Source: a virus
IMG/VR virus record: IMGVR_UViG_3300042090_001586
Span: 1 to 31,509 of that record
Length of the DNA: 31,509 nucleotides
Direction: 5' to 3' (one strand)
In this document: piece after piece, positions 5,481-29,249 of the stretch
Position numbering within the stretch: the first letter of the stretch is position 1
Layout: every line of letters starts with the position of its first letter
Notes under the pieces: generated by a model
Told to the model about the DNA's origin: nothing
The model's database searches: none
The model's input: only the letters and a program-made list of their open reading frames with translations
Program-made: the position numbers and the translations under genes

Positions 5481-5921
5481 CTAGGAAGTATATACCCACC
5501 CTCGGCATTTGTCAAAAGAGGGAGTTATGCTAAGTTTCGATATTTCTTCTTTCGCCTCTTTGGGCATTGAATTAACGTTTTCCAAGATGAACCATTTGGG
5601 CTTCAAAACCTCTTTCAGTCGCAAGAACTCATAGAACAGTCCGCTACGTTTTCCGGCAAGTCCTTCACGCCCTTTCTTGGCGATGCTTAGGTCTTGACAA
5701 GGACTTCCACCTATGAGCAAATCTATCGGTTCGTCAATCCATCCACTTTCCAAAAGACCCACGATCGAACCGACCTCGATGATGTCCGGCCACCGTTTTT
5801 GGGCTATTCGCATGGCACTCGGTTCAATCTCGGAAGCCCAATAATGCTCGACGGGAATACCCGCCTTGTTCAAGGAGACACGAGCACATGCAATTCCATC
5901 AAAGCAACTAAGTACATTCAT
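5481..5921 (-). CDS. C5-cytosine DNA methyltransferase, 3'-truncated
   Basis: The N-terminal half of a Dcm/Dnmt-type enzyme is clear: motif I FDGIACARVSL, an acidic residue of the SAM pocket in ASEIEP, IDLLIGGSPCQD with the catalytic C75, and motif VI LENV at 113-116. The protein stops at residue 146. Motif VIII (QxRxR), the target recognition domain and motifs IX and X are missing, whereas phage relatives usually exceed 280 residues. The last ~16 residues no longer look like the family and coincide with a perfect sigma70-type promoter. It cannot select a target site alone, so it is probably inactive, or it is half of a split enzyme whose partner is outside this window. Confidence 0.85.
   Translation of the reverse strand: MNVLSCFDGIACARVSLNKAGIPVEHYWASEIEPSAMRIAQKRWPDIIEVGSIVGLLESGWIDEPIDLLIGGSPCQDLSIAKKGREGLAGKRSGLFYEFLRLKEVLKPKWFILENVNSMPKEAKEEISKLSITPSFDKCRGWVYTS
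5487..5515 (-). promoter_or_regulatory. Strong sigma70-type promoter for recombination operon
   Basis: On the minus strand TTGACA (5515-5510), 17 bases, then TATACT (5492-5487). It sits inside the last codons of the truncated methyltransferase and points at the 64-residue gene and the recombination enzymes. Confidence 0.8.
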
Positions 5922-9680: not shown

Positions 9681-11546
9681 TCAGTAAGGGTTCCCCATGC
9701 AACGAAAATCAATTACATCCGCACCAAGCGTTGCGTTGGTGATGACTAGCGTCGAGGTCGTCACGCTGTATCCCACGACGATGCTCGCCGTCCTGCTCGT
9801 CACGACGCATGAGGGAAGGTACGTCCACGCCGAAGCGAAGTTAAGTGTGCAGGTCGTCGCTACTGTTCCTGCGGTTATCACGCCACCGTTGTCCGAACCA
9901 GTTACGCTGGGAGAACCCGTGCCACAGGACGTAACGGAAACCGAGGACGTTGCCGAGCCGAGATGCCCGTTCACGTCGAGGAATTGTCCAGTCGTCGTCG
10001 CCGTTACTCCCGCGAAGTTTCCATAGAGGAGAGAGTACTTTTGGTCGTTGGCGGCGGTGGATTGCTGTATATCTCCAAGATAGAAAAGGTTTGAGCCTGT
10101 TGCGTTCGAGCCAGCATAATTTCCGATTGATACACCGTATCCTCCCGCTTCATTCGTCCCCGCATAATTTCCTATGTCGGTAGCATAGGAAATTGGAGTG
10201 CTACCGGTTTCTCCGCCAGTATTCGTTCCAATAAAAACATCTCCGTTAAAAACACCTAAACCTGAATTACCCGCGCCGTTCCCAATGCCTACATTATTGC
10301 TTCCTGTGGTGTTGGCGGCGAGGGAATTATAGCCGTTCGCTGTGTTGTTGCCGCCGGTGGTGTTGGCGCTGAGGGAAGCAAAGCCATCCGCTGTGTTCTG
10401 GTTTCCTGTGGTGTTGGAGAGGAGAGAATTAACTCCATTCGCTGTGTTGTTGCCGCCGGTGGTGTTGGCGGTGAGGGAAGCATATCCATTCGCTGTGTTG
10501 TAGTATCCTGCGGTGTTGGAGAGGAGAGAATTAACTCCATTCGCTGTGTTGTAGAATCCTGTGGTGTTGGAGTAGAGGGATTCATAGCCGTTCGCGGTGT
10601 TGTAGTTGCCGGTGTTGGAGTAGAGAGAATTAACTCCATTCGCTGTGTTGTATTTTCCTGTGGTGTTGGAGTAGAGGGATTCATAGCCGTTCGCTGTGTT
10701 CTGGTATCCTGCGGTGTTGGAGAGGAGAGAATTAACTCCATTCGCTGTGTTGTAGTTTCCTGTGGTGTTGGCGGCGAGGGAATTATAGCCGTTCGCGGTG
10801 TTGTTGCCGCCGGTGATGTTGGAGTAGAGGGATTCATAGCCGTTCGCTGTGTTCTGGTATCCTGTGGTGTTGGAGTAGAGAGAATTAACTCCATTCGCTG
10901 TGTTGTAGAATCCTGTGGTGTTGGAGTAGAGGGATTCATAGCCGTTCGCGGTGTTGTAGTTGCCGGTGGTGTCTTCATTTCCCGCCTGATAGCCAATAAA
11001 CGTATTAGATATCCCAGTCGTCGTTGCTGCCGCACCGACACCAAGAGCCGTCGTGTAGGGAGAACCACCCGAAGTAACACCCGTGAGAGACGAAGTAGAA
11101 GTTATCGTAGAAACGATGACCCCATTCATATAAATCCCGCCCGTAGCGTCAATACTCCCATTCACGCCGAGGGCATAACCCAAATCGGTCGTGGTGGCGA
11201 TGTTTATATCATTCGTGGAGGTTGATTCGTAAATCGTGGAGTTCGTGAGTGCGAGAGAACTAGAAGCGAAAGGAAGGTATCCCGCAGTAAATGGAGTAGT
11301 CGTCGCCACGCCACCCGCCGCTCCCGTCGCCGGAGTTGAACATGAGAGCGTGTTCGTGGACGAGGCATAGGTGAGATACTGTCCCGACGAGCAGTTGACG
11401 TTCTGCGCGGAATAGCTATTCGCAGTAGAACTTGATGTCACTATCCCTGCACCAAGCGAACCGATATAACTGGCATAGCTCAAGGAGCCAGCCGTGAGTA
11501 TTCCTGCTGTCACCGCCCCCAGCAATATGAGAAGTTTCCTGTTCAT
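9681..11546 (-). CDS. Repeat adhesin / fibre with secretion-type N-terminus, 621 aa
   Basis: The N-terminus MNRKLLILLGAVTAGILTAG is a signal peptide or membrane anchor. A Ser/Thr-rich region follows, with several ATTT/STST stretches. Residues 198-417 carry thirteen units of 17 residues (one of 16), each based on NTANGY(E/N)SL(Y/L)SNTTG. After them comes a NVGIGNGAG region recalling YadA-head and phage-fibre repeats, where each unit is one coil of a beta-roll, and a C-terminal strand-rich cap with four Cys. The fold is probably a trimeric fibre. It lies in the fibre block but, unlike normal phage fibres, seems exported. Starts overlap the 126-residue gene by four bases (ATGA). Confidence 0.75.
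   Translation of the reverse strand: MNRKLLILLGAVTAGILTAGSLSYASYIGSLGAGIVTSSSTANSYSAQNVNCSSGQYLTYASSTNTLSCSTPATGAAGGVATTTPFTAGYLPFASSSLALTNSTIYESTSTNDINIATTTDLGYALGVNGSIDATGGIYMNGVIVSTITSTSSLTGVTSGGSPYTTALGVGAAATTTGISNTFIGYQAGNEDTTGNYNTANGYESLYSNTTGFYNTANGVNSLYSNTTGYQNTANGYESLYSNITGGNNTANGYNSLAANTTGNYNTANGVNSLLSNTAGYQNTANGYESLYSNTTGKYNTANGVNSLYSNTGNYNTANGYESLYSNTTGFYNTANGVNSLLSNTAGYYNTANGYASLTANTTGGNNTANGVNSLLSNTTGNQNTADGFASLSANTTGGNNTANGYNSLAANTTGSNNVGIGNGAGNSGLGVFNGDVFIGTNTGGETGSTPISYATDIGNYAGTNEAGGYGVSIGNYAGSNATGSNLFYLGDIQQSTAANDQKYSLLYGNFAGVTATTTGQFLDVNGHLGSATSSVSVTSCGTGSPSVTGSDNGGVITAGTVATTCTLNFASAWTYLPSCVVTSRTASIVVGYSVTTSTLVITNATLGADVIDFRCMGNPY
10296..10955 (-). repeat. Thirteen tandem 51-base units in the adhesin gene
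   Basis: Twelve units are 51 bases and one (the seventh) is 48, missing one Thr codon. Three kinds alternate (NGYES, NGVNS, NGYNS/YAS), which suggests higher-order duplication of paired units. Confidence 0.9.
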
Positions 11547-13215: not shown

Positions 13216-13234
13216 TTATTATTTTTAATAATGG
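13216..13234. repeat. AT-rich palindromic 19-mer, copy 2
   Basis: It is the reverse complement of 6033-6051 over all 19 bases and sits within the leader of the 424-residue fibre gene. Confidence 0.7.
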
Positions 13235-13845
13235 AATGAATGGGGCGTCTGCGCGCTCGAATAGGTCGTTGCCGCCGCCGGAGGGTTCACAAAAGTAACC
13301 TCCCAGCCGTCCGTCTGCGGAACGGGCGTGGAATATCCGTCCCCCGCCACAAGTTGTGCCCCTCCTACGACGATATAGACGGGCTTATTATAGAAATAGT
13401 AGGTCGTGGTCACGCCGTCCGGCACGAAAACAGCGTCCTCTTGCTGGAGAAGGACGGGCATGGAAGCGCCCCCCATCTTGGAATAGGAAATGCGTATCTC
13501 GTCACGGAGCTTCGAGATTATCTGTGTATTCTCTTCTTTCACTTTCGCCAGCTCTTTCGAGTGCTTCTCCGATTTCTCATCCACGACGGACGACAAGCGT
13601 TGCACGGCGGCGGAACTCTTGCGGTCGAACTCCGCCATGCGGATCTCATGCTGGCGGGACTGTTCATCCATCGCTTCTTTCATGGCTTTCCGCCACTCTT
13701 TTTTATGGGCGTCGAAAAGTTTCTTCATCTCTTCGATGGAGGAAGAACTTTTCTCCACGTCGTTCACCAGTTCGCTATAACCCTCCTGCGGGTCAAGCTC
13801 GATGAGCAGCTTGCGGAGCTTTTTTTTCTTCTCGGTATCAAGCAT
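13225..13845 (-). CDS. Coiled-coil protein with C-terminal beta domain, 206 aa
   Basis: Residues ~1-118 are highly charged and helical (LDTEKKKKLRKLLIELDP..., long K/E/A heptads). The last ~80 residues are strand-rich (VFVPDGVTTTYYFYNKPVYIVVGG) and end in SFHY. This head-to-tail layout of coiled stalk plus small beta domain suits a fibre base or tail needle part. It overlaps the PurD-like gene by 8 bases. That gene also ends in a short charged coiled coil, so the two products might interact. There is no signal peptide, in contrast to the next gene. Confidence 0.65.
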   Translation of the reverse strand: MLDTEKKKKLRKLLIELDPQEGYSELVNDVEKSSSSIEEMKKLFDAHKKEWRKAMKEAMDEQSRQHEIRMAEFDRKSSAAVQRLSSVVDEKSEKHSKELAKVKEENTQIISKLRDEIRISYSKMGGASMPVLLQQEDAVFVPDGVTTTYYFYNKPVYIVVGGAQLVAGDGYSTPVPQTDGWEVTFVNPPAAATTYSSAQTPHSFHY

Positions 13846-15400
13846 CTTTGAGTATTTCTTTTATCTCATCACGCAAAGAACGGAGGTCTCCCGCATGTTT
13901 GTCGGACAGGTCTTTCATTTTCTTCTCGTATCCGTCACGCATGTTCTTTATTTTCCCGTCGGTATCGCCGTCGCCCGCATACAGATCGTACCCCGTGATG
14001 AAACCTTTCTCGACGGCGTAGTTGTAACGCACCGCAAGGGATGTCCCATAGGAGTCATCGAGGAAATCTCCTTTACAGCGATAACCCCACCTTTTCGTCG
14101 CCAGAGCGAACTTATCCACGGAGGCGTAGGTAGCCTCCACCGCCGAAAGGAAGTCGTTACCATGCCCCGTTATGACGCAAGCAGAGGGGTCGTAGCCCGC
14201 CGTAACCCACTCTCCTTTGACCATTTTGGCGTCCATAGGCCAGCAGTGCTCGGCGATGTCCTCCGGGATCATCATCTTGATGCCTTCTTTCTCCGACTCA
14301 TCGTTGAAGATGCGGACAGAACAGGACATTTTCTTGTTCCTTATCGGGTTGCGGAAATTGACGATATCATTGAAATAATCCACGGGGTTCACTCCTTCCA
14401 TCTGAGAGGTGAAATCGTCGTAGCCCACGCGGTTCGCGCAGAACTCGCCGGGATATATCTTCCCCGATGCTTTCGAGATCAAGACGGACAGATCCCATAC
14501 GAACATCCCTTTCGCTTTTTTCGCCATCTCGTCCACGATGGGAGGAAAAGCGATGGTATTTATCTTGTCGTCCATCTCTGTCAGCAAGACCATGTCCGTT
14601 CCGCAACCGACCAACTCCGAACCGACATCACCAGCGTATTTCCTTTTCGTCTCGATATCCAAAGAAGTGAAGACCTCTTCGCCGTCATAGTAGATGCGTT
14701 CTGGCGTGAGCTCGATGGCGTCCTCCAGCTTCACTTCGAAGATCATGCCGCCCGCATTATAGAGGTCTTTGTTCTCTTCAAGCGCATTTATCAAAAGTTC
14801 TTTGCAGGTCTCGATATCCTCGCCCGGGGGCACGATGGTCGGCGCTTCAGGATTGTTCCCTTTGAGAACCAGCATGTCGTCCGAGTCCTGCACGAGCTTG
14901 ATACCCTCGTCCACGGTCTTGCATTCCCACACTTTCTCTTTTGCCACATCGGGATAGTTCTGGGCGATGAACTCTTTTGCTTTTTCCCTGTCCGACTCCA
15001 AGATGCGATGTTCGAGCGTCGGGAAATTGCCGTGCGGCATAAAAGCAGAAAGCTTCTCTGCGTATTTGAAACAGGTGTTCATATCGCAGAAGACGAACCA
15101 TGAGTCCTTGTCGTCCCTTTTCTTCAGATAATCGACGACGCTATCGGCGGAATATACGTCAATGACGCCGGAATAGTTCGACATGCGGAGCTTCTTCGTC
15201 TCGCCCTTCTCGCCCTCGTCGGAGGGGTCTTTCCCCTCCTCTTTCATCTTCTTTATCTCGTCCGGAGTGTAGATATCCGCTTGGTCTTCGATGATGCCGA
15301 CGATGACCTCGCCTTCGGTGTTGTCTTTGAACCTTTTGGCGATGGAACATCCTTCACCGCTAAAAGTAATTAAAGCCAAATTCTTTATTTTATTCTTCAT
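13838..15400 (-). CDS. PurD (GARS)-like ATP-grasp ligase with coiled-coil tail
   Basis: The 520 residues follow the layout of phosphoribosylamine-glycine ligase: an N-domain (LALITFSGEGCSIAKRF), an ATP-grasp region with K180 in MLVLKGNNP, DGEEVF, the GDVG turn, and the metal-site PGEFCANRVG (E319, N323). The C-domain follows, CVITGHGNDFLSAVEATYASVD then RCKGD, like the VTGxGxxxxEA..YxxVxxI...YRxDIG end of PurD. Residues 1-470 thus cover the whole enzyme, and residues 486-520 add a coiled coil. Several PurD signature residues differ, so the substrate may not be glycine. It overlaps the KH gene by 11 bases and sits in the virion gene block. Confidence 0.8.
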   Translation of the reverse strand: MKNKIKNLALITFSGEGCSIAKRFKDNTEGEVIVGIIEDQADIYTPDEIKKMKEEGKDPSDEGEKGETKKLRMSNYSGVIDVYSADSVVDYLKKRDDKDSWFVFCDMNTCFKYAEKLSAFMPHGNFPTLEHRILESDREKAKEFIAQNYPDVAKEKVWECKTVDEGIKLVQDSDDMLVLKGNNPEAPTIVPPGEDIETCKELLINALEENKDLYNAGGMIFEVKLEDAIELTPERIYYDGEEVFTSLDIETKRKYAGDVGSELVGCGTDMVLLTEMDDKINTIAFPPIVDEMAKKAKGMFVWDLSVLISKASGKIYPGEFCANRVGYDDFTSQMEGVNPVDYFNDIVNFRNPIRNKKMSCSVRIFNDESEKEGIKMMIPEDIAEHCWPMDAKMVKGEWVTAGYDPSACVITGHGNDFLSAVEATYASVDKFALATKRWGYRCKGDFLDDSYGTSLAVRYNYAVEKGFITGYDLYAGDGDTDGKIKNMRDGYEKKMKDLSDKHAGDLRSLRDEIKEILKDA

Positions 15401-15671
15401 GGTGTTCGTTGGATATGGGGTTTCCTACATGGATGAGCACTCGGGCGTTGTTCAGTTCGCACCAGCCACGCATGATATTCCTGATGCACCGCGCCATCAG
15501 TCCCGTCTTGCCGATGAGCAAACGCAGGTCATCCCTCTCTGCGATGACGTTCAAGACGATGCCGCGTCCCGCACTATCCATATGATGACGTATCTCGATC
15601 TGCTCGGGATATCGGGTCAAAGGTTGCACGATGGTCAAAAGATACGCGGTTGCTTTTTCTTCGGTGTTCAT
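15390..15671 (-). CDS. KH-domain RNA-binding protein, KhpA-like
   Basis: The 93 residues are almost exactly one KH domain of the bacterial KhpA/YlqC kind: helix ATAYLLTIVQPLTRYPEQIEIR, strands, then ERDDLRLLIGKTGLMARCIRN, with the GxxG loop at 54-57 (GKTG). KhpA proteins bind RNA and act as small chaperones with KhpB in translation or cell-size control. A phage copy is unusual. The ATG at 15671 was chosen because KH homology begins there and because an extended -10 ends six bases upstream. It overlaps the PurD-like gene by 11 bases, which implies a joint function. Confidence 0.85.
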   Translation of the reverse strand: MNTEEKATAYLLTIVQPLTRYPEQIEIRHHMDSAGRGIVLNVIAERDDLRLLIGKTGLMARCIRNIMRGWCELNNARVLIHVGNPISNEHHEE

Positions 15672-15677
15672 GTTTTT

Positions 15678-15686
15678 ATTATAACA
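15678..15686 (-). promoter_or_regulatory. Extended -10, leaderless for the KH gene
   Basis: TGT then TATAAT (15683-15678), then AAAAAC and the ATG. The start of transcription would be at or next to the A of the ATG. No -35 match is seen. Confidence 0.5.
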
Positions 15687-15688
15687 TT

Positions 15689-18637
15689 TTATTCGCTTGC
15701 CTGCTTCTTCTGGTATTTTTTGAGGTCGGTCAGATATTTTTGGTAGGCGCTTTTCTGGTAATAGTTCTGTATCCACGTCTGTTCTACGGGCGCGGTATAG
15801 GATTGCAGGAAGGTCTGGACGATGTTCTCCCACATCGGATGCGTGGTGTCCCATCCTGTCAAGGTTTTGATAAGTTCCGTGGGAACGCCTTTTGCTATGG
15901 TATTCCCTACCACGTCCGTACCCTGCGGCTGAACCTCCGTCTGGAAAAGGTTCAAAAGACGTGAAGTAAAAGGAGCGCCGGAATCCGCATAAGGGGAAGT
16001 GATGCCATAGAGGTTAGAATAGACGTCTTTCCCCGTCGCAAGAATAGAACCAGCTTCAGGTATCGGCCCCGAACCCAATTTGTTCAAAAGACCCTGTGCG
16101 CCTTCTTGGATAAGTTCGGGAACAAGATTCGTGGAAGCCGCAGGTGTGACATATACCATCTCACCCTTCTGGTTCTTCTGTCCCGTCGCTATCTTCCACG
16201 CCGCACCTTGGTCATTCTGCCACAAAGGAACGCCTGCAAGGGCTTCGTTCAACGAGTTCCAGACCTTGATGGGCAGGAGTTGGCGCTGGGGGTTGGTGAG
16301 CCAAGAACCGAACTGCAGGTCAAGGTTCGTCTTGAACCAAGAATAATAGGGGTAGAGGGCTTGGAAAAAACTTTTCTCCGTCGCCGAGACATTCTGCCAG
16401 TTCCCCGCGATGTGATTTACATAATCCGCCGCCTCCGAGTCCGTCGCACCTTTGTTCAAGGCGGTACGGAAGATGGAAGCGCGTATCGCTTCATCCGAAC
16501 CTTGGAACAGCTTGTTCCCGACGTTCGTGTTCCCGAAAGGGTTCAAAGCGTCGCCCAGCTTACGCATCGCATCGCCGTAATTTCCGCCGAGCACCGAACC
16601 CATGATGCCTTTCGTTTGGGGTTGCATCATGTCCGTCCCCAATTCCTGCATGGAACGCCCGTCATTGAACAAAGGGCGAAGCGCCCCCGCCTGTTGCATC
16701 CTGTCGATGATCGCTCCGCCGTCCCGTGCGTCCTCCACGCCCTGCGTGACGGTGTCGAAAGCGTTCATACCGCCCGCAAGCCACATATTCATCATCACGT
16801 TGTGCGTGACGTGGTAGATGGCGGTCAAAGGATTAAAGAAGTAGAGATTGACAAGGCGTCCGGAAACACCTTTCAAGCTTTTCATCACGCCAGAGTCGGG
16901 CGTTTTCGTGAAAATCTGGTTCAGGTCGTCGGCTATCGCCTTGTTCTCGAAGGCGTACATCTCGGAAGCGTTTTTGCTCGTGAAGAAAGAGCTCGGCGTG
17001 TAGATGCCGTAACCCGCCTCCTTGTACTGTTTCATCTCGCTCGGGTCTATCGCTTTGCCGAACTCGGAGATGGCGTAGTTGATATGGTCAAAAAGATTCT
17101 TGCGAGCCATCGTCTCCGCATGTTCCGTAGCCAAAGAGAGATAGGGGTCATCAGATAAGCCGTAGGCATACCGGGCTTTCATGGCGACGTCATGCAAAGC
17201 ATCCCGCCCTGTTTCAAAGAGGGGATTTTTCAGATTATAAATGGCTTGGTCTATCGCGTCGGCGTCCTGTCCCGCCGCCTTCATCATGCCCCGCACGAAA
17301 TCCTCGTCGCTCACCCGTCCCTTCTGGAAGGCGGCGATGAGCTTCTTCATGGGACGGGACTGCGTGTAGACTTTCTCTTCCGAGTTGTATCCGACGTTCC
17401 TGATGTAGTCCTTGAGCATGGACTCGTCGGACAAGCCAGTCTCGCTTTTGATGCCTTCCATCATCGGACGCCATTCGTCCACATAATGAGCAAGCTGTTT
17501 CGCCACATTCTCGGACACTTCCGGCTGAACTTCTTTGATTATCTTTGCGATTCCATCGGCTCCGAGACCCTTCAAGCCTTCCTGCGAGACACCCAATTCC
17601 GCTGTGGTATCGTTCGCCAAACGGAAAAAGTCGGAAGCGTCTTGGGCCGTCATATGCACCGCAGAGTCCCCGTCGAAGAACTTTATCGAAGCAAGCCAGC
17701 CATTCACTTTCGCATAGGAGTTCTTGGCGAAGGTCTGCATCTTGGAGCGGTAATAGTCACCGTCCATCTCCACGCCGTTCAAGACCTTCGGGTTGAAGGT
17801 TGCTTGGACTACTTTGTAGGGCGTCGAGTCGCGCACCCAATCCGCGATGGCAGAATCACGGACGGCGGAAATTGTCTTGTCGATGGAGTCGCCCGATAAG
17901 ATGGTCTTTCCCGCGAACTTCAAACCACGTTCGGTTATCAGAGAATCTTCGCCGTTCAGATAACGTGCTTTGACCGCGTCTTTGAACTGTTCCATCACGT
18001 CGGGAAGGTACTTCGTCACGTCACGTCCCATGTCCGCCGCTTCGCCCATGTCTTTTATGGCTTTCATCCCCTCGTTCGAGATGACGCCGAGGCTTTTCCC
18101 CGTCTCGTCGAACATCTCGCCCACCCGATTGAAAAGACCATCACCCGAAACATACATCAAAGGGTCGGTGGCGACGTCCAAAGCGAAACCTCCCACGCCC
18201 GCGCCGACGCGGGTCTCCCATGAGTTCGGGTCTTTCCCCCAATCCTTCGCCAACTGGTTGAAAATATCCTGCCCCGAGACGTCGGAACTGCCGGGCGTCA
18301 TGCCCGCAAGCACTTTCAGAGGGTTCAGATTGCTCGCTTCGGGGACGCCCATCGCTTTCGCAATCGTGGTCTCGACTGCTTTCTCCGGGCGGGAAGTCCA
18401 GTAGGTTACGGCAGACCAAGCGTTCTTGATGCCGCCCCAAGAGTCCTGCGCCACGGTATTCGCAACCTGACCGAGACCCGAAAGAATACCGTTCTTCGGA
18501 GCGACATTCGTGGTCGGAGTGGTTTTCCCTGATTGCAGACGTCCCGCAACGGGAACTTTGGGCGTAGCCAAAGGAGCCGCCGAAGGAGTTGTCGGCGCAC
18601 TTCCCGATTGTAAGCGACCTACTACGGTAGTTGCCAT
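15689..18637 (-). CDS. Large internal virion / ejection-type protein, 982 aa
   Basis: The N-terminus carries GRLQSG twice (about residues 7-12 and 32-37) inside a Pro/Thr/Ala-rich stretch. A segment GVGGFALDVATDPLMYV follows, typical of large internal or polyvalent phage proteins. The remainder is mainly helical. Near residue 780 an aromatic segment FFQALYPYYSWFKTNLDLQF and other amphipathic parts could insert in membranes, as ejection proteins do. No enzyme motif was found. It lies next to a 537-residue protein of similar style, matching the paired internal core proteins of podoviruses. The ATG follows CAATAAAAAAA without a Shine-Dalgarno. Confidence 0.65.
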   Translation of the reverse strand: MATTVVGRLQSGSAPTTPSAAPLATPKVPVAGRLQSGKTTPTTNVAPKNGILSGLGQVANTVAQDSWGGIKNAWSAVTYWTSRPEKAVETTIAKAMGVPEASNLNPLKVLAGMTPGSSDVSGQDIFNQLAKDWGKDPNSWETRVGAGVGGFALDVATDPLMYVSGDGLFNRVGEMFDETGKSLGVISNEGMKAIKDMGEAADMGRDVTKYLPDVMEQFKDAVKARYLNGEDSLITERGLKFAGKTILSGDSIDKTISAVRDSAIADWVRDSTPYKVVQATFNPKVLNGVEMDGDYYRSKMQTFAKNSYAKVNGWLASIKFFDGDSAVHMTAQDASDFFRLANDTTAELGVSQEGLKGLGADGIAKIIKEVQPEVSENVAKQLAHYVDEWRPMMEGIKSETGLSDESMLKDYIRNVGYNSEEKVYTQSRPMKKLIAAFQKGRVSDEDFVRGMMKAAGQDADAIDQAIYNLKNPLFETGRDALHDVAMKARYAYGLSDDPYLSLATEHAETMARKNLFDHINYAISEFGKAIDPSEMKQYKEAGYGIYTPSSFFTSKNASEMYAFENKAIADDLNQIFTKTPDSGVMKSLKGVSGRLVNLYFFNPLTAIYHVTHNVMMNMWLAGGMNAFDTVTQGVEDARDGGAIIDRMQQAGALRPLFNDGRSMQELGTDMMQPQTKGIMGSVLGGNYGDAMRKLGDALNPFGNTNVGNKLFQGSDEAIRASIFRTALNKGATDSEAADYVNHIAGNWQNVSATEKSFFQALYPYYSWFKTNLDLQFGSWLTNPQRQLLPIKVWNSLNEALAGVPLWQNDQGAAWKIATGQKNQKGEMVYVTPAASTNLVPELIQEGAQGLLNKLGSGPIPEAGSILATGKDVYSNLYGITSPYADSGAPFTSRLLNLFQTEVQPQGTDVVGNTIAKGVPTELIKTLTGWDTTHPMWENIVQTFLQSYTAPVEQTWIQNYYQKSAYQKYLTDLKKYQKKQASE

Positions 18638-20264: not shown

Positions 20265-20273
20265 ATTATAACA
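20265..20273 (-). promoter_or_regulatory. Extended -10 for the 537-aa gene
   Basis: TGT then TATAAT (20270-20265), eight bases before the ATG. A second TATAAT overlaps the preceding stop at 20278-20273. A weak TTGAGC lies 19 bases upstream of that one. Confidence 0.45.
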
Positions 20274-29240: not shown

Positions 29241-29249
29241 ATTATACCA
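29241..29249 (-). promoter_or_regulatory. Extended -10, leaderless for the 71-aa gene
   Basis: TGG then TATAAT (29246-29241), then AAAAAG and ATG. Almost identical in layout to the KH gene start. Confidence 0.5.

Follow-up and report, generated by a model that had tools for sequence, protein, structure and literature searches.

A PurD-fold ATP-grasp protein encoded behind ejection-type genes in phages, and its putative role as a virion-module amide ligase

We analyzed a 31,509-base virus sequence, IMG/VR virus record IMGVR_UViG_3300042090_001586 (the whole of which is called the window here), and found that a 520-aa protein encoded in its virion block is best read, from family profiles and a structure model, as a member of an undescribed PurD-fold ATP-grasp subfamily that occurs mainly in phages and also in some Levyibacteriota. 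In 11/11 phages one or two large ejection-type proteins are encoded upstream of the gene, and this conserved position is the strongest functional clue, suggesting that the enzyme goes with the virion or ejection module. The KH, ligase and fiber-base-like genes of the window are all on the minus strand, and the locus contains the following features.

15689–18637, minus strand: 982-aa large internal/ejection-type protein, upstream; role from position and size
15678–15686, minus strand: TGTTATAAT, extended −10 box, probable leaderless promoter, 6 bases before the KH ATG
15390–15671, minus strand: KhpA-type KH-domain gene, 93 aa, ATG start, GKTG loop intact
15390–15400, minus strand: overlap of the KH and ligase genes, 11 bases
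13838–15400, minus strand: PurD-fold ATP-grasp ligase, 520 aa, ATG start
13844–13963, minus strand: codons of the C-terminal coiled-coil helix, residues 480–519, from the AlphaFold model; shared with G012–G015
13225–13845, minus strand: coiled-coil fiber-base/adaptor-like protein; first 8 bases shared with the end of the ligase gene

An earlier note on this DNA had described overlapping KH and ATP-grasp genes located between ejection and fiber-type proteins; both reading frames and their 11-base overlap are present, and the location was borne out. A fiber-like protein at 9681–11546 of the window contains many repeats of the type NTANGYESLYSNTTG.

Fold, family and distribution of the ligase

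As a single query, the 520-aa protein retrieved nothing useful in Pfam, PHROG, NCBIfam, the PDB or tblastn searches; the NCBIfam search, TIGR00877 included, gave no match at E ≤ 1, and matches to Post_transc_reg and L27 were rejected as chance. The earlier description of a full PurD-like ATP-grasp enzyme was nevertheless right, though this is visible only through the family profile and the structure model. Compared with the PDB, the family profile matched PurD (2xcl, E = 2e-7) across the ATP-grasp and C domains, and hhalign aligned the family with PurD across 400 columns. GARS_C was matched by three phage members (best 6e-4), and TIGR00877 (purD) by 14/15 bacterial members scanned. The AlphaFold model of the 520-aa protein, for which the input was an 11-sequence alignment, had a pLDDT of 87.2 and a pTM of 0.83; it matched 13 PurD entries at Z 23–25 over ~385 residues, with biotin carboxylases next at ~20. 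Foldseek matched the model to PurD at E 1e-20, and found weak generic ATP-grasp matches only in the viral library. The domain order is pre-ATP-grasp, ATP-grasp, GARS_C-like and then coiled coil. The family as a whole is one that Pfam and PHROGs miss, and the window protein is missed by NCBIfam too.

Along with the ATP-grasp fold, the window protein has R138, K180, E250, K252, D303, E319 and N323, with roles assigned by alignment, and it keeps the invariant or near-invariant catalytic-type residues of the family (R138, E230, E250, K252, D303, E319, C321, N323 and R324). Some of them are encoded as follows.

14987–14989, minus strand: R138 codon, invariant; at the position of PurD's first phosphate-binding Lys
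14645–14653, minus strand: E250 and K252 (codons 250–252), invariant in 28/28; counterpart of PurD "DHK"
14492–14494, minus strand: D303 codon, invariant; likely metal ligand, by alignment
14417–14446, minus strand: EFCANRVGYD metal-site motif, codons 319–328; replaces PurD EFN(C)RFGDPE

Across the family this last motif is an invariant EFC(S/A)NR-G with an extra residue relative to PurD, such that the usual E-x-N metal motif reads E-F-C-x-N, and two cysteines, C266 and C321, are near-invariant. In the clade formed by G012–G015 and G017, Gln replaces K180, the counterpart of the second phosphate-binding Lys of PurD.

IMG/VR was scanned for the suspected metal-site motif EFxxNRxGYD, written as a degenerate DNA pattern. 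Of the eight stretches recovered, six encoded homologs (phmmer E 4e-47 to 2e-78), one was the identical contig and one held an unrelated protein. With a profile scan of IMG/VR added, the phage homologs beyond the window protein came to ten, and scanning genomes yielded 17 bacterial-genome loci, in Levyibacteriota, Verrucomicrobiota and others; the prophage gene at the Paraburkholderia locus L079 is the one that phage record L062 also carries. The sole INPHARED match, Enterococcus phage Efs 1-1-1 (22% identity, an unannotated wastewater contig), was left out. Related loci found by the ligase or the ejection protein alone were limited to a 100% identical contig, IMGVR 3300014655_000013, which matches the window over 18,098 bases with no mismatch.

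In the ligase tree, the bacterial clade was supported at 100/97 and the phage clade of G012–G015 and G017 at 100/100, and the window protein, with an end branch of 1.47, was not placeable. The bacterial branch is patchy: the ligase was found in 1/380 Patescibacteria sampled, that one being the query genome, and in 12/73 genomes of the query genome's family. L029 and L030, which by capsid and TerL are the closest relatives of sufficient length for a judgment, reach the locus and are without the ligase, while the TerL/capsid relatives L004–L007, L010–L013 and L028 stop before the locus, so that missing matches there are uninformative.

We also observed variants of the gene itself. Tandem duplicates are present at L070:4565–7368 and L073:7938–10799, and the Levyibacteriota genome G025 carries four copies. 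Ligases with an N-terminal HAD-like extension are encoded at L039:2141–3976 and L045:2555–4420; the motif of the extension reads YDFHGTL in G012 and is degenerate in G014, and the extension of these two gave no Pfam match and a low-confidence model.

Position in the virion block and possible roles

The ligase gene directly follows the ejection-type gene in most of the phages, with a few small genes between them in L062 and G016. The upstream proteins themselves are clearly related (E < 0.01) in two groups only, G012/G015/G017 and the ligase-lacking pair L029/L030, apart from one marginal match between G014 and L029. SLT domains were detected in upstream proteins or their neighbors in G013 and L062, as was LPD38, a phage polyvalent-protein domain (PMC5512222), in L059. 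When the window's main proteins were compared with the available sequence of G013, G016, L055, L059, L062 and L063, the ligase was the sole virion-block homolog common to the window and these six phages. Since the same location recurs in ten other, mostly unrelated phages, the ligase probably joins molecules for the particle, and its retention behind mostly unrelated ejection proteins in 11 phages would imply a general assembly or entry step.

The extra coiled-coil tail, also described in the earlier note, corresponds to the predicted helix 480–519. It is present in the window, G012, G013, G014 and G015 only, and in 0/17 bacterial members. In the window, G012, G014 and G015, the next gene, which is fiber-base-like, shares 8–17 bases at its start with the end of the ligase gene. 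In L029 and L030, which are without the ligase, a short coiled-coil protein occupies the corresponding slot, and when a profile of the tail was run against the open reading frames of six ligase-lacking relative records, the L029 slot protein ranked first (3.7e-4) and that of L030 second (0.12); because short coiled coils score easily, this match is suggestive at most. It hints that the ligase domain may have been joined to, or lost from, a fiber-base accessory protein. The tail is missing from 6/11 phage members, and tethering therefore cannot be universal.

Our tentative proposal, which we consider quite possible if short of probable, is that the protein is a virion-module amide ligase, tethered by its coiled coil to a fiber-base protein in some phages. 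It would be produced along with the late virion proteins, immediately following the ejection proteins, and, like PurD, would activate a carboxylate with ATP as an acyl phosphate and then join an amine, with substrates other than phosphoribosylamine plus glycine. In the window phage and its coiled-coil-bearing relatives, the C-terminal coiled coil would probably hold the ligase at the fiber base, and, as the particle is assembled, the enzyme would most likely add an amino acid or a small amine or acid to one of the virion or ejected proteins. That this amounts to a hitherto undescribed particle modification system, in which a virion-borne PurD-type ligase attaches an amino acid to fiber-base or ejected proteins, is a further step that we hold to be rather doubtful. 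Counting against a virion ligase are the bacterial members, which are chromosomal and without a virion, the clade in which K180 is replaced by Gln, and the missing ligase of L029 and L030.

The constant place of the gene behind ejection genes, together with the SLT or LPD38 domains of the upstream proteins, would also fit an enzyme that is packaged or co-ejected and that, once inside a newly infected cell, modifies one of the host's proteins or metabolites; modification of host proteins has been proposed for ATP-grasp peptide ligases (PMC4431377). We regard this as possible but rather unlikely, given that the coiled coil adjoins the fiber base rather than the ejection proteins and that no fusion of the ligase to an ejection protein was seen.

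Neighboring genes in other genomes are consistent with yet another product. A HExxE zincin-like protein adjoins the ligase in Levyibacteriota and in phages G016 and L062, and lies near TerL in G012, G014, G015 and L011. These small proteins had no Pfam match in those scanned and no PHROG match below 0.06, and none is encoded in the window; examples are listed below.

L066:9405–9953: small HExxE (zincin-like) protein
L049:10173–10562: small HExxE (zincin-like) protein
L062:7248–7670: small HExxE (zincin-like) protein
L044:5217–5591: small HExxE (zincin-like) protein
L011:8343–8753: small HExxE (zincin-like) protein

An Amidohydro_2 gene stands beside the bacterial ligase at four loci (L068, L069, L075 and L080, from Verrucomicrobiota and one unclassified bacterium), an Asp/Glu racemase gene is just upstream of it in L062/L079, and an N-acetylmuramoyl amidase is downstream in L055. 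The HExxE, amidohydrolase and racemase neighbors point to amide, amino-acid or peptide chemistry, not RNA. All of these would suit an amidoligase whose product is a cell-wall peptide or an amide-linked metabolite rather than a modified protein, but the neighbors vary by lineage, none of them is in the window, and a soluble metabolic enzyme would not need a fixed position in the virion block; we therefore consider it unlikely.

The KH gene and its promoter

In agreement with the earlier note, the gene that overlaps the ligase encodes a KhpA-like KH protein. It matched PF13083 (KH_KhpA-B) at E = 1.8e-7 and 31.4 bits, just below the curated cut-off of 32.1, and is ~30% identical to Levyibacteriota KhpA in alignment, with the GxxG RNA-binding loop intact (IGKTG opposite IGKEG). 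In family match, loop and identity it resembles KhpA, and it differs in being a phage gene that falls slightly under the Pfam cut-off.

The earlier note had seen in this protein the RNA-guiding partner of a ligase that modifies RNA or protein, and the gene overlap, the probable shared promoter and the intact loop all fit that idea. However, a PF13083 match was found in 0/16 other related phage records, all ligase carriers found included, some of which are fragments; as a positive control, the search does recover the KH domain in the window's own record. The gap between ligase and ejection gene is 0–88 bases in G012–G015 and G017, the closest ligase-bearing relatives, vs. 289 in the window, so that the KH gene looks inserted; a 282-base KH gene cannot fit in the shorter gap, and this lack of space is independent of record fragmentation. 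Moreover, the fold is that of PurD, not of an RNA ligase. The pair is not kept together, which the earlier note had itself named as a refutation, and a KH-guided ligase is largely refuted as a family-wide mechanism and in our view highly improbable. What stands of that interpretation is a PurD-fold enzyme with a coiled coil, in the virion block and probably non-purine; the KH protein as RNA guide is not supported. The KH gene looks like a chance neighbor of the ligase, and we read it as recently inserted and as serving RNA handling in its own right.

The leaderless promoter that the note had assigned to the gene pair is plausible, with TGTTATAAT lying 6 bases from the KH ATG. The window contains three copies of TGnTATAAT vs. 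0.42 expected, each on the coding strand, and 2/3 of the boxes lie 6–8 bases before a start codon:

15678–15686, coding strand: TGnTATAAT box
20265–20273, coding strand: TGnTATAAT box
29241–29249, coding strand: TGnTATAAT box

Shine-Dalgarno sites are almost absent from the window genes, most of which are without one, and this, together with the excess of boxes on the coding strand, makes leaderless messages plausible. From these sequence features, the boxes placed 6–8 bases ahead of start codons are probable leaderless promoters. In a sigma-70 −35/−10 scan of the window, matches were rarer than chance.

Comparison with PurD and other ATP-grasp ligases

The ligase shares with PurD (TIGR00877; PDB 2xcl, 1gso, 2yw2) the whole N, ATP-grasp and C fold and the positions of the E-K and E…R motifs, and differs from it in the EFC(S/A)NR-G motif and near-invariant cysteines described above, in its coiled-coil tail and virion-block location, and in standard tests by which, at the level of sequence, it is not a GAR synthetase. 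First, the PROSITE PurD signature PS00184, R[LF]GDPEx[EQIM], was found in 0/28 family members, window included. Second, a bacterial member taken as an example scored 22.1 bits with TIGR00877, vs. an equivalog cut-off of 288 bits. A separate GARS_N-bearing PurD is encoded in 8/13 bacterial genomes with the family, the five in which it is absent being draft genomes. The signature is lost throughout and the catalytic residues are retained; the earlier placement of the enzyme outside purine synthesis is probably correct. The signature criterion was earlier used to deny GARS function to extra haloarchaeal PurD-like proteins (PMC3261824). These proteins (rrnAC0307 and Hlac_1553), likened to the ligase by description only, are likewise without a GARS_N match or the signature Asp and were judged non-GARS; they are cellular, with no phage context reported.

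Sporadic occurrence in bacteria and phages is shared with the R2K ATP-grasp peptide ligases, as is a migrated metal-site Asn (ExGD in R2K.3, E-F-C-x-N in the window family); the one-position Asn shift in R2K enzymes was described as new to the superfamily (PMC4431377). They belong to another ATP-grasp clade, whereas the window family has a PurD-type C domain after the ATP-grasp domain. The ATP-grasp/amidoligase set of LUZ24-like phages (PMC3890496) likewise comprises amide-forming ligases encoded by a podovirus; the ligase there is 291 aa and lies in the early region beside GATase and COOH-NH2 ligase genes, and tblastn gave no detectable match between that set and the window ligase family. The signature loss, shifted metal-site Asn and pair of near-invariant cysteines open the substrate question to direct testing.

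That the gene is an auxiliary purine gene encoding a phage GAR synthetase is most improbable: no fold or family is nearer than PurD, and virus-encoded GART has been reported in the oceans (PMC11360552), but against this stand the missing signature, the genuine PurD alongside it in 8/13 bacterial genomes, the virion-block position and, as the earlier note had stated, the lack of any other purine gene among the ~19 window proteins scanned with Pfam. A C5 cytosine methylase open reading frame at 5481–5921 of the window covers PF00145 positions 1–122 of 324 only, and is truncated or split. Bacterial members of the ligase family could pass for PurD, and the "auxiliary purine genes" of virus surveys may consequently include this family.
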